Source: Bulleidia sp. zg-1006 (lineage in GTDB: Bacteria > Bacillota_I > Bacilli_A > Erysipelotrichales > Erysipelotrichaceae). From it: a stretch of DNA of 64,000 nt. Position numbers and translations under genes: made by a program. This document shows, one piece after another, positions 52,621-57,883 of this stretch. Every line of letters starts with the position of its first letter. Positions within the stretch are counted from its first letter, which is position 1. The stretch is from contig NZ_CP069178.1 in NCBI RefSeq assembly GCF_016812035.1, positions 1 to 64,000 on the forward strand. The letters run 5' to 3'. The notes below the pieces were generated by a model. The model had not been told where the DNA came from and did no database searches. It was given only the letters and a program-made list of their open reading frames with translations.

Positions 52621-53568
52621 ATGTTAGTGGAAAATATTAAAAATGATTTTATGCCAATCTCTTTAAAAGATTGGCAATGGGTACAAACCTATTTAGAAAA
52701 AAGTGACTATGAGGAATCCAATCATAATATTGTGAATATGATGTTGTGGTTAAAGGAATATCCTCTCTTTGTGAAAGAAGAAGAACACTACCTATTGTTA
52801 TTGGGAATTCATGAAGGGCAACTATTTGTTTATATGCCTTTAGCGGAAGAGGGTTATTTGCGAGAGGCTTTATTGGATGCTCGGCAAATCTTTGATTTTT
52901 ATGGTGTTCCTTTTTGTTTGAGTTGTTACACCAAAGAAGTGATGGATTTTGTGTTAGAGGTATTCTCGGATTTATCTGCAGTGGAAGAAAGGTCGGCGGC
53001 GGATTATGTGTATGAAGCCGATAAATTAAGAACTTTTTCAGGTAAGAAGCTACAAAAGAAGCGCAATCATATTAATGGCTTTTTGAAGGAGTACGAAGGT
53101 CGTTGGACTTATGAAAAGATAAACTCTGAAAATGTTGGGGAATGTTTGGAATTTTTAGAGAATTGGCGTTCGGATGACCCCGATGATTTTTTGCAAAGTG
53201 AAAGAATGGGCGTAGAGAAAATCTTACACTTGGTAGATGTTTTGCCATATAAGGGTGGTTTAATTCGAATTGATGGAAAAGTGAAGGCTTTTGCGATTGG
53301 TTCTCTCTTAACAAAACGCATGGCACAGGAGAATATTGAGAAAGCGGATAGCTCGATTCGTGGCTTGTATCCAATGATATTAAAAGAGTGGTTGGGGCAT
53401 GAATATCCAGGTGTGGAACTGCTTAATCGTGAAGATGATACAGGAAGAGACAATTTACGCTATGCCAAGATGTCACTTCATCCGTTATACTTAATAAAGA
53501 AATATCGTATAAAAAGGAGTGATGAAGATGATTCAAAGAGCTCTTTCTTCACAAACGGAAGAAATTAA
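52621..53568 (+). CDS. DUF2156 (GNAT-like) protein
   Basis: This 315-residue protein has the layout of the DUF2156 family, related to the C-terminal aminoacyl-transferase domain of MprF: an acyltransferase fold with FSGKKLQKKRNHINGFL and the end NREDDTGRDNLRYAKMSLHP. Substrate unknown; addition of amino acids to lipids or another small target is possible (inference). It lacks membrane helices. It overlaps the next gene by 41 bases, and its C-terminal tail is charged. Confidence 0.8.
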   Translation: MLVENIKNDFMPISLKDWQWVQTYLEKSDYEESNHNIVNMMLWLKEYPLFVKEEEHYLLLLGIHEGQLFVYMPLAEEGYLREALLDARQIFDFYGVPFCLSCYTKEVMDFVLEVFSDLSAVEERSAADYVYEADKLRTFSGKKLQKKRNHINGFLKEYEGRWTYEKINSENVGECLEFLENWRSDDPDDFLQSERMGVEKILHLVDVLPYKGGLIRIDGKVKAFAIGSLLTKRMAQENIEKADSSIRGLYPMILKEWLGHEYPGVELLNREDDTGRDNLRYAKMSLHPLYLIKKYRIKRSDEDDSKSSFFTNGRN

Positions 53569-54445
53569 GCAATTATGGAATCTTTGTTTTAAGCAGGAGG
53601 ATTCTCGATACACCGAGTATTATTTTAAGTATTTGTTTCAAGCGGAACATTGTTACGTCGTGGTTGAGGATGGCAAGGTGGTTAGTTCTTTGATACGGGC
53701 GCCACATAATCTTGTGTTACATGGTCAGGTTTTAAGAACCTCGATGATTTTAGGTGTGTGTACACATCCAAGTTATCGGCATCGTGGCTATATGAAACAA
53801 TTGATGGATATTACACTAGATGCTTGTGAACATTCGGAATTGGTTACGTTAATTCAAGCTTATGATCCAAGATTATATGAACCTTATGGTTTTGAAACGA
53901 TTTATCGTCGATCGGCTTTTAAAATGCAAGCAAGGGATTTACCACGAACCAATGTTTTCGGTTTGAATTATAATCCAAAGGCTCTGGATTTATTGAAGGT
54001 GTATTCGGTATTTATTCGTCGTTTTAATGGTTTTTATGCACGTGATTTAGCTTATTTTGTGAAGTATCGCAAAGAGATTATTGCCCAAGGTGGTAAAATC
54101 GTGGCTTATTATGATGGTAAAGACCAAATCCAAGGCTATGCGTCTTTATTGCCGGACGGTAAGAAACAATTACGGGTAGAAGAAGTTGTTTATTTGGATG
54201 CGACTTGTTTGGTGAAATTATTGAATGCGGCGGCGCGTGAGAATCCGAATTTGGTATTAGAAGTTAGTGAAGCTGAAGATTTGAGTGGGGCTTTCCCAAA
54301 GGCTGAAAGAGTCATTTATGATTCAACGATGGTGCGTTTAAATCATCCCGTTTTGTTTTCAAAGCTATACGGTCACAAAGTAGAAACAGTGAAGGAAGCC
54401 TTTGCCTTGGACAATCGACCATTAAATTTAAATGAGTTTGCCTGA
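53528..54445 (+). CDS. GNAT-family N-acetyltransferase, Eis-like
   Basis: This two-module GNAT protein has 305 residues with acetyl-CoA loop GVCTHPSYRHRGYMKQL, followed by a second acyltransferase-like half and a C-terminal sterol-carrier-like part. This resembles Eis-type acetyltransferases; the substrate cannot be read from sequence. ATG 53528 is chosen because AAGGAG (53514-53519) sits eight bases upstream; the GTG/ATG at 53519/53522 are too close. It overlaps the DUF2156 gene by 41 bases, so the two acyltransferase genes are probably co-expressed. Confidence 0.75.
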   Translation: MIQRALSSQTEEIKQLWNLCFKQEDSRYTEYYFKYLFQAEHCYVVVEDGKVVSSLIRAPHNLVLHGQVLRTSMILGVCTHPSYRHRGYMKQLMDITLDACEHSELVTLIQAYDPRLYEPYGFETIYRRSAFKMQARDLPRTNVFGLNYNPKALDLLKVYSVFIRRFNGFYARDLAYFVKYRKEIIAQGGKIVAYYDGKDQIQGYASLLPDGKKQLRVEEVVYLDATCLVKLLNAAARENPNLVLEVSEAEDLSGAFPKAERVIYDSTMVRLNHPVLFSKLYGHKVETVKEAFALDNRPLNLNEFA

Positions 54446-55563: not shown

Positions 55564-55573
55564 TTGAATGAAG

Positions 55574-55595
55574 AGCCCACTTCGGTGGGCTTTTT
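55574..55595 (+). terminator. Terminator after gapA
   Basis: AGCCCAC-TTCG-GTGGGCT (55574-55591) has a UUCG tetraloop, then TTTT. Confidence 0.9.
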
Positions 55596-55601
55596 CTTGT
55601 C

Positions 55602-55630
55602 TTGAATTGAAAACTAATCACCTATAGAAT
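55602..55630 (+). promoter_or_regulatory. Promoter of the HTH-RCC1 gene
   Basis: TTGAAT (55602-55607), 17 bases, TAGAAT (55625-55630). A ribosome site CGGAGG precedes the ATG. Confidence 0.6.
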
Positions 55631-55649: not shown

Positions 55650-57698
55650 ATGATTAATAAATTTCCAAATAAATTAAGAGATTTACGAAAGTCTTTAGGC
55701 TATGCTCAAGGAGAGATGGCAAGCCGCTTAGATGTATCAGTGAAAGACTATATGAATTGGGAAAATGGAAATAGCCTTCCTGCTTTCGCACAAATTCAAA
55801 AAATGGCAATTCTTTTCAATATACCGGTGGAATTGTTGATGGATAATAAAAAGGAGATTAGCGAGGATTTACTAAATACCTTAAGTAAGAGTGTTACGAT
55901 TCCAAGCTTTGTAAAGGCGACACCTGAAGTAATCCTAACGGATACAATGCCGTTAGAAACGGGAGAAAACCTAGGTGAAACAAAAGTGATGTCAGCCATT
56001 CAAGATAGCCCTCGCAAAGAAGCTATCAAGAAAGAAGTTGAAAAGCGCAAAAAGATTAGTCGTAAGGTCATTTGGATTGGTAGTGCTGTATCAGCAGTGA
56101 TTTTAGTTGTTTTAGTTCTTGTGTTTGTCTTTTTGTTCAATCGTAAGAGTAATTTAACAATTAGTGATGTCAATCGTTTGGCCTTAGGTAAGCATTTTTC
56201 CATTTATATTGCGGATAATGGTTCAGTTCAAATTCGGGGAAATTTGAATAATAGGTCAGTTTTTGAAAATATTGTTCAAGTTAGTAATTATGATGATCAT
56301 GTGGTTGGTTTAAAGAAAGATGGAACTGTAGTAAGCAGTGAAAGTCATGATGATGTTTCAAGGATGCGGTCTATTCAAATGGTGGCTGCCGGCTATGACC
56401 ATATCTTAGCTTTAAAAAAAGATGGAAGCGTTGTTTGTTCGGGCAATGAAAATGCGTGTTCTGTTTCGGAATGGAAGAATGTTAAGCGTATTTATGCCGG
56501 TAAGAATGTTAGCTTTGGTCTTCGCAGTGATGGTCAAGTTCTAGTGGCTGGTGATGGTGCAGAGGTAAAGGGCATAAGGGGTGTTCAAAGCATTTGTGCT
56601 AATGACCAAATGATTGCACTTGTTCGTAAGGATGGCGCTGTTCAAGTTATCGCTAAAACAAAGAAAGAAATCCCAAATACAAGTCATTTATCAGATGTAA
56701 AGTATGTGGCTCTTCATAAAGAGGGTGTCTTTGCGATTGGTCAAAATAATAAAATTCAATGGTCAGTCTTGGATGAAGAAAAAGCTTCTTTTGATAAAGC
56801 AACTTTATCTCGTTGGCAAAACATGCGTTTTATTGCCGGTAATGGGGATACTTTAGTTGGTATAGATCAGAATGGTAAGATGGCAGGTATTGGAAATAAT
56901 GATTCCAATCAATATGAAAATACTTCCGTTTTAGCTGAACCACAGGTTAATAAGCTGGGACAAGTGAAAAATATTAAATTCAAAGAAACGACGGCTAATG
57001 TAAATATCACTTGGGATCCGGTGGAAAATGCGGATCGTTATCGTGTTACAATCGATACTGAACCGATGTTTGATAAACAAGATATCGCGAGCAATAGCAC
57101 CAGTATTCCAGCCACAAAACTGGAATCCGGTAAAACTTATAGAGTAACGGTCACTGCTTTATCGGATAAGACGGATAAGTATTCCGAAAGTGATGTGACA
57201 ACGATTAACTATACCTACAATCAAAAGGTGATTAATTTAGAAGCACCTAAAAATGTAACCAATGAAGTAACGAATGAGGGTTGGGTATTTAAGTGGGATA
57301 AGGTTGAACATGCGGATTACTATAAGATTGTTTATGATGGTCGTATCTTGGTGGATAAGCAAAAAGATCCCATCTATCACATTGATAACGAAGGTATCCC
57401 AGAAAATTCAAAGCATAAAATTGAAATTACAGCACATTCTAACCAACCGGAGGTTTATCGTGATAGTCCACCGGTGATAATAGAAGCCACTTATACAGTT
57501 AAGAAATTTGATATTACATTTGTGTTTGTAAGAAATGGCGCTGAAGTAGGGAGAAAATCGTATCGTCTAGCTCAAGGTTCTTATTTACTTGGTTCAATTA
57601 TTCAATATGCGGATATTCCGGGTGGTTATCACTTAAGCAATCCGTCTTCTGAAGTAAGTATTTCAAAATCCGGTGAACTAAATGTGGAGGTTAAATAA
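55650..57698 (+). CDS. Transmembrane HTH regulator with RCC1-like propeller and fibronectin III domains
   Basis: This 682-residue protein has an N-terminal Xre-type HTH (residues 1-62: RDLRKSLGYAQGEMASRL), a charged linker, one transmembrane helix (about 140-163), then an outer part. Residues about 176-425 hold RCC1-like repeats with recurring GxDHILALKKDGSVVCSG-type units, about 430-523 and 528-616 are fibronectin type III-like, and 617-682 is a final small beta domain. The layout suggests a one-component receptor that senses an outside ligand or surface structure and acts on DNA from the membrane (inference). A small GYF_2-like gene is translationally coupled to it. Confidence 0.75.
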   Translation: MINKFPNKLRDLRKSLGYAQGEMASRLDVSVKDYMNWENGNSLPAFAQIQKMAILFNIPVELLMDNKKEISEDLLNTLSKSVTIPSFVKATPEVILTDTMPLETGENLGETKVMSAIQDSPRKEAIKKEVEKRKKISRKVIWIGSAVSAVILVVLVLVFVFLFNRKSNLTISDVNRLALGKHFSIYIADNGSVQIRGNLNNRSVFENIVQVSNYDDHVVGLKKDGTVVSSESHDDVSRMRSIQMVAAGYDHILALKKDGSVVCSGNENACSVSEWKNVKRIYAGKNVSFGLRSDGQVLVAGDGAEVKGIRGVQSICANDQMIALVRKDGAVQVIAKTKKEIPNTSHLSDVKYVALHKEGVFAIGQNNKIQWSVLDEEKASFDKATLSRWQNMRFIAGNGDTLVGIDQNGKMAGIGNNDSNQYENTSVLAEPQVNKLGQVKNIKFKETTANVNITWDPVENADRYRVTIDTEPMFDKQDIASNSTSIPATKLESGKTYRVTVTALSDKTDKYSESDVTTINYTYNQKVINLEAPKNVTNEVTNEGWVFKWDKVEHADYYKIVYDGRILVDKQKDPIYHIDNEGIPENSKHKIEITAHSNQPEVYRDSPPVIIEATYTVKKFDITFVFVRNGAEVGRKSYRLAQGSYLLGSIIQYADIPGGYHLSNPSSEVSISKSGELNVEVK

Positions 57699-57883
57699 TG
57701 GATAAGATTTGGTATTATTTAAATCACTCAGCGAAAGAAAAGCTCGGTCCTTATACGGATGAGGAATTAATTAAGCTTTTAAATCAAGGTATTGTGGATG
57801 TGGATGATTACATTTGGATGAAAGATTTTGAGAACTGGTTAAAGGTAGAAGATTCCATTTACTCCGTATATATTGGAGAATAA
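57698..57883 (+). CDS. Small GYF_2 (DUF4339)-like protein
   Basis: This 61-residue protein reads WYYLNHSAKEKLGPYTDEEL and later YIWMKDFENWLKVED, matching the GYF_2/DUF4339 layout, a small fold that binds proline-rich peptides or occurs in membrane-associated proteins. It starts in TAATG with the HTH-RCC1 stop, so it is translated with it, and ends at a strong terminator. It could be an adaptor for that receptor (inference). No partner motif is visible. Confidence 0.7.
   Translation: MDKIWYYLNHSAKEKLGPYTDEELIKLLNQGIVDVDDYIWMKDFENWLKVEDSIYSVYIGE

Follow-up and report, generated by a model that had tools for sequence, protein, structure and literature searches.

The closest described systems to the two-gene locus examined here are the TTRs, transmembrane regulators that by definition combine an HTH domain with a transmembrane (TM) helix. 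They are widespread, are most commonly single-pass, and often possess an outer sensor, as exemplified by BcrR, CadC, and ToxR; RCC1 is absent from the main text of the paper that surveys them (PMC10269533). In the co-component systems VtrA/VtrC and ToxR/ToxS, overlapping or adjacent genes co-evolve, with one of the products being a membrane-tethered HTH protein (PMC9214523). The larger protein of our locus, termed the receptor, unites a predicted DNA-binding domain (HTH_3) and one predicted TM helix in a single polypeptide and thus formally falls among the TTRs. It shares with them an N-terminal HTH, a TM helix, and an outer region but differs in its atypical recognition helix, a cytoplasmic GYF partner, and a fixed core locus, and its DNA binding is putative. 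As in VtrA/VtrC, an HTH–TM protein is encoded in a conserved adjacent or overlapping gene pair; however, the partners in VtrA/VtrC and ToxR/ToxS are periplasmic and lipocalin-like, whereas our locus pairs a cytoplasmic GYF_2 protein with an HTH protein that contains the entire sensor. RodZ has the same layout of a cytoplasmic HTH fold, a linker, a single TM helix, and an outer β domain, but combines HTH_25 with the partner MreB, whereas the receptor harbors HTH_3/HTH_19 and many of its carriers lack MreB. Finally, no histidine kinase or receiver domain is found by Pfam in either protein, which distinguishes the pair from two-component systems and is in accord with the earlier note on this DNA, which had suggested signaling without a histidine kinase.

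The features of the locus in the window, that is, the whole 64,000-nucleotide stretch of DNA analyzed, are as follows:

55570-55595, + strand: terminator-like hairpin belonging to gap, the gene upstream (11-pair stem, T tail)
55602-55630, + strand: promoter-like sequence TTGAAT-17-TAGAAT of the two-gene unit (from sequence)
55650-57698, + strand: receptor gene, 682 aa (ORF, Pfam, AlphaFold2 model)
55650-55847, + strand: XRE-type HTH, residues 1-66 (Pfam, five helices in the AlphaFold2 model, conservation)
55848-56063, + strand: cytoplasmic linker, residues 67-138, mostly disordered (pLDDT ~30 over 82-139)
56064-56138, + strand: predicted single TM helix, residues 139-163, positive side in (AlphaFold2 model, charge count)
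56169-56924, + strand: predicted extracytoplasmic RCC1-type β-propeller, residues 174-425 (Pfam, model, fold comparison)
56961-57215, + strand: first FN3 domain, residues 438-522 (Pfam fn3 at 438-518, 5e-7; model)
57246-57464, + strand: second FN3-like domain, residues 533-605 (model only, no Pfam call)
57465-57695, + strand: C-terminal β domain of variable type (model; no Pfam match here)
57698-57883, + strand: GYF_2 partner gene, 61 aa, cytoplasmic, one-base overlap with the receptor gene (Pfam; no signal peptide or TM helix seen)

The coordinates, strand, and one-base overlap first reported for the pair are exact: within TAATG at 57696-57700, the TAA stop codon of the receptor shares one base with the ATG of the 61-aa gene. 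The hairpin that follows gap points to an isolated receptor transcription unit, and of the 35 upstream regions compared within the genus, 22 contain a promoter of the TTGAAT-17-TAGAAT type (~1 expected by chance). Gene order is identical in the closest named relative, Bulleidia extructa W1219 (Erysipelotrichaceae; receptor 76-77%, GYF 92%), and the order gap–receptor–GYF–cysS is found again in several genera. The receptor–GYF pair is also intact at loci that lack gap and cysS as neighbors (e.g., L035 and L037). Its flanking genes are housekeeping genes or unrelated inserts, with those between GYF and cysS mutually unrelated and mostly on the opposite strand. Elsewhere in the window, a GNAT-type gene (53519-54445), if its GTG start is correct, begins ~50 bases before the preceding gene ends (overlap 53519-53568).

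A receptor match (E ≤ 1e-5) is obtained in 56 of the 59 genomes of the genus. A full-length profile yields 124 matches in 295 sampled genomes of the order, one of which (G092) is to RCC1 only, leaving 123 receptor-bearing genomes, all in one family, the Erysipelotrichaceae, and distributed over 14 genera; outside this family, a class-wide sample reveals HTH-only or RCC1-only matches and no full-length receptor. The GYF gene accompanies the receptor in 115 of the 123 genomes (lists compared by hand), the exceptions being four g47 genomes, G249, G263, and two fragmentary assemblies. It lies directly downstream at 36/36 loci of the genus with enough contig (offsets of -8 to +33 nt) and is adjacent at 20/20 loci from other genera, these 20 having been picked via their GYF gene. 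Furthermore, the distances of receptor and GYF remain correlated after those of cysS are accounted for (partial r 0.41; 0/999 permutations). Since the arrangement is conserved across 14 genera, it is far above chance, and we conclude that the gene pair is real, ancient, and undescribed, a family-wide core system and not an oddity of the window. Conservation throughout a family, at a locus of housekeeping genes, is more in line with a core function in the envelope than with the host sensing raised as a possibility in the earlier note. A horizontal or phage origin is not supported; sequence distances parallel those of cysS and synteny is kept at the locus, which favors vertical inheritance. A paralogue search of the window genome returned two weak HTH-only matches, with ordinary XRE-type proteins nearby. 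No NCBIfam or curated family covers the whole architecture, and the literature searched contains no paper on HTH–RCC1 proteins in Erysipelotrichia, nor on the ligands of bacterial GYF domains (GltJ). The suggestion of a two-gene system with no named counterpart is borne out, and the pair represents a conserved, unnamed receptor system of a family of gut and oral bacteria.

To describe the receptor, we combined Pfam with an AlphaFold2 model computed with 36 homologues as input (mean pLDDT 85). Pfam places HTH_19/HTH_3 at residues 8-67, with HTH_3 above the Pfam cut-off, and four RCC1_2 stretches (E 7e-16) in the outer region, where the model has propeller strands at residues 177-414. The predicted propeller superimposes on solved seven-bladed propellers of the RCC1 type with Z scores of 20-23 (CRINKLY4, 23.3; UVR8, 22-22.5; BLIP-II, 21; RCC1, 20), and Foldseek matches it to BLIP-II (E 6e-13); a propeller in this region had been anticipated. 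Like the receptor, the plant receptor kinase CRINKLY4/ACR4 has a seven-bladed RCC1-type ectodomain, and CR4 is also a single-pass receptor, while BLIP-II is a secreted bacterial protein binder with this type of propeller. The likeness to CRINKLY4/ACR4, BLIP-II, UVR8, and RCC1 is in fold only (~14-22% identity), and the receptor lacks a kinase; elsewhere, propellers of this kind are known to bind proteins strongly. Cys263, considered with Cys270 as a candidate disulfide, is missing in 5 of 67 receptors. The domain order HTH–TM–RCC1–FN3–FN3 put forward previously holds for the HTH, TM helix, RCC1 region, and first FN3, with the second FN3 coming from the model without a Pfam call. In other genera, Flg_new or MucBP takes the position of the C-terminal β domain. 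A PASTA domain, suspected by eye at the C terminus of some relatives, is not supported (hhalign probability of 2%, with no Pfam or convincing PDB match). Receptors L115, L117, L118, and L120-L123 end in a ~75-residue domain with two invariant cysteines, which matches neither Pfam nor PASTA and has no convincing counterpart in the PDB. In another receptor (L067:5086-7767, - strand), the last 90 residues repeat a CxxxxGxIWxDGAC-type unit and probably form disulfide-bonded repeats outside the cell.

All 67 receptors compared contain one strong hydrophobic stretch between the HTH and the propeller, with a greater net positive charge before than after it in 52 of the 67. The parts that follow include FN3, Flg_new, MucBP, and Pro-Thr-rich or Cys-rich tails, which in Bacillota are usually found outside the cell. 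The single hydrophobic stretch, charge bias, and outside-type domains make a topology with the HTH inside and the propeller outside well supported as a prediction, consistent with the membrane-anchored HTH receptor originally proposed.

The partner protein is a predicted GYF domain (Pfam GYF_2, E 2e-9) with the GP[FY]...W core, and W5, Y7, G17, P18, W40, and W47 are invariant within the genus. Its model (pLDDT 91) matches the GYF domains of GltJ from Myxococcus xanthus (PDB 7z3c) and of eukaryotic Smy2/GIGYF; in contrast to these, it is a free-standing protein of 61 residues with a conserved C-terminal SIYSFYL-type extension. Two short motifs in the receptor linker are of note with respect to this partner and to phosphorylation:

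55890-55910, + strand: SVTIPSF, residues 81-87 (family consensus S[VI]xIPF), candidate GYF docking site
55971-55991, + strand: LGETKVM, residues 108-114 (consensus LxxT[RK][VI][MI]), candidate Ser/Thr-kinase site T111

In genera with long linkers, S[VI]xIPF follows shortly behind the HTH, and one or more LxxT[RK][VI][MI] motifs are often present as well. The IPF motif is present in 42 of 67 linkers versus 1.3 in composition shuffles, and T.[VI][VIM] occurs 56 times versus 12.5 ± 3.4, both excesses being inflated by sequence relatedness. Genera with short linkers have no IPF motif and no Thr motifs in the linker proper, yet retain a diverged GYF protein, the core of which degenerates. An IPF-like motif is found in 43 of 46 cases with an intact GYF core (GP[FY]) and in 3 of 15 with a degenerate one. 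Because this coupling comes mostly from two clades, it hints at IPF as the ligand of the GYF protein but does not prove it, and the Thr motifs too may reflect only two clades. No PPG-phi ligand motif is seen in the receptor linker. At L153-L156 (g47) and at L158 the receptor is retained and the GYF gene is absent; three of the sequences from g47 have also lost the IPF motif but keep a Thr motif (EKTQVV type).

We consider it most probable, at roughly 0.45, that the pair encodes an envelope receptor whose HTH docks a protein rather than reads DNA. The pair would be a vertically inherited two-gene envelope-signaling unit of the Erysipelotrichaceae, in which the seven-bladed propeller, FN3, and variable surface domain bind a protein or wall-associated ligand outside the cell. 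One TM helix would relay binding to a cytoplasmic assembly of the XRE-fold domain, linker, and co-translated GYF protein, with the latter docking on the linker, possibly at the IPF motif, and the linker potentially tuned by a PASTA Ser/Thr kinase. The XRE fold would then be a conserved surface for docking proteins, like that of RodZ, and not a sequence-specific DNA reader. The nearest propeller folds, among them a membrane receptor ectodomain (CRINKLY4) and protein binders (BLIP-II), are in keeping with this reading.

The foremost alternative, which we consider a serious if somewhat doubtful contender, is that the receptor acts as a TTR, in which a ligand on the propeller alters how the membrane-held HTH oligomerizes, and with it DNA binding and transcription of distant genes, with the GYF co-component recruiting or blocking. 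Its domain composition is that of this widespread class (PMC10269533), members of which, such as BcrR, occur in Bacillota, and overlapping co-component genes have a precedent in VtrA/VtrC (PMC9214523). Furthermore, the XRE scaffold residues R13, Q20, E38, N39, and G40 show little or no variation among 67 receptors; aligned by eye, they equate to R10, Q17, E35, N36, and G37 of the 434 repressor. Such residues anchor the domain to the DNA backbone or stabilize its fold. Their invariance, which a DNA-binding protein would also show, counts against protein docking, as do the closest NCBIfam family of the HTH, the RstR repressor (below cut-off for the window protein, with 23 of 24 members matched), and the lack of GYF in g47 and two further genomes. 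On the other hand, the base-reading positions are hydrophobic or acidic and invariant across genera. The recognition helix, VxDYMNWENG in the window protein, conforms to an atypical V-x-[DE]-Y-M pattern across 68 domains (V/L/I at position 31, 94%; D/E at 33, 93%; Y34, 99%; M35, 88%), whereas the same positions in other XRE domains are mostly R/P/Q, T/S/A, I/L/V, and S/T (a small background of 13 from the same loci); N39 is more strictly kept in the receptors than in those domains. Nor is a shared operator found upstream of the receptor gene, where any one inverted repeat occurs in at most 2 of 35 regions, a level that shuffled sequences also reach, and no conserved target gene stands beside the pair among the neighboring genes of the compared loci. 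A 404-residue HTH–TM–RCC1 protein from genus g29 (L159:4643-5857, + strand), possibly an independent or ancestral form of the receptor, has an ordinary recognition helix (SRQTISKWEKG) and lacks FN3 and GYF. The atypical helix, its ordinary counterpart in this GYF-less protein, the missing operator, and the housekeeping or unrelated neighbors lean toward protein docking, with DNA binding still quite possible; an invariant acidic-hydrophobic recognition face would suit a fixed protein partner. The regulator of DNA envisaged in the earlier note is only partly supported, by an invariant scaffold but not by a typical recognition helix, a shared operator, or a conserved adjacent target. Should the receptor signal to DNA, the pair would bring transmembrane regulators a sensor of a new type along with a co-component in the cytoplasm; should it not, it would show an HTH fold put to use for docking outside the MreB/RodZ system.

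Kinase control of the receptor linker is plausible. The Thr motif resembles the ETTSVF site of GarA/OdhI. The only Hanks-type kinase found in the window genome (G000:C1:856506-857264, - strand; L187) carries PASTA repeats and is encoded directly after a PP2C phosphatase gene. In addition, the only FHA domain found there belongs to a single-pass membrane protein (G000:C1:1523979-1524524, - strand; L188/L189), the linker of which contains DDEVTKVVPT, similar to LGETKVM of the receptor; motifs of this type occur in about half of 16 relatives of the FHA protein. An extended form of the protein-docking reading, rather unlikely in its entirety, is a new trans-envelope design in which the HTH has turned to protein docking, with a GYF adaptor and PASTA-kinase Thr sites, wired to wall growth or division and core to one family, many members of which would have lost MreB and RodZ. 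A special case of protein docking is a MapZ-like anchor, the outer part of which would bind the wall or a wall enzyme while the kinase-phosphorylated inner part positions a division factor via GYF, with no signaling to genes. Although the kinase-type Thr motifs, the PASTA kinase and FHA protein, and the core conservation and vertical inheritance are compatible with such an anchor, no FtsZ- or wall-binding domain is identified, short-linker genera lack Thr motifs in the linker proper, and the C-terminal domain seen in some genera has no supported relation to PASTA, so that we judge it improbable.

A RodZ-type morphogenesis protein tying MreB filaments to the wall synthesis machinery would share the receptor's layout in a genome without RodZ, but this is highly improbable, and contradicted as the conserved role, because the HTH is HTH_3/HTH_19, HTH_25 has no Pfam match in the whole window genome, MreB is absent from it at E 1e-20, genuine MreB is missing from nine receptor genera (g1, g23, g26, g27, g28, g30, g33, g50, and g56), and in g24, g45, g61, and g47 the receptor coexists with MreB and a true RodZ-type HTH. 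The window genome has no genuine RodZ. MreB is found in most other genera of the order, and an odd genome of the same genus (G016) has it and lacks the receptor.
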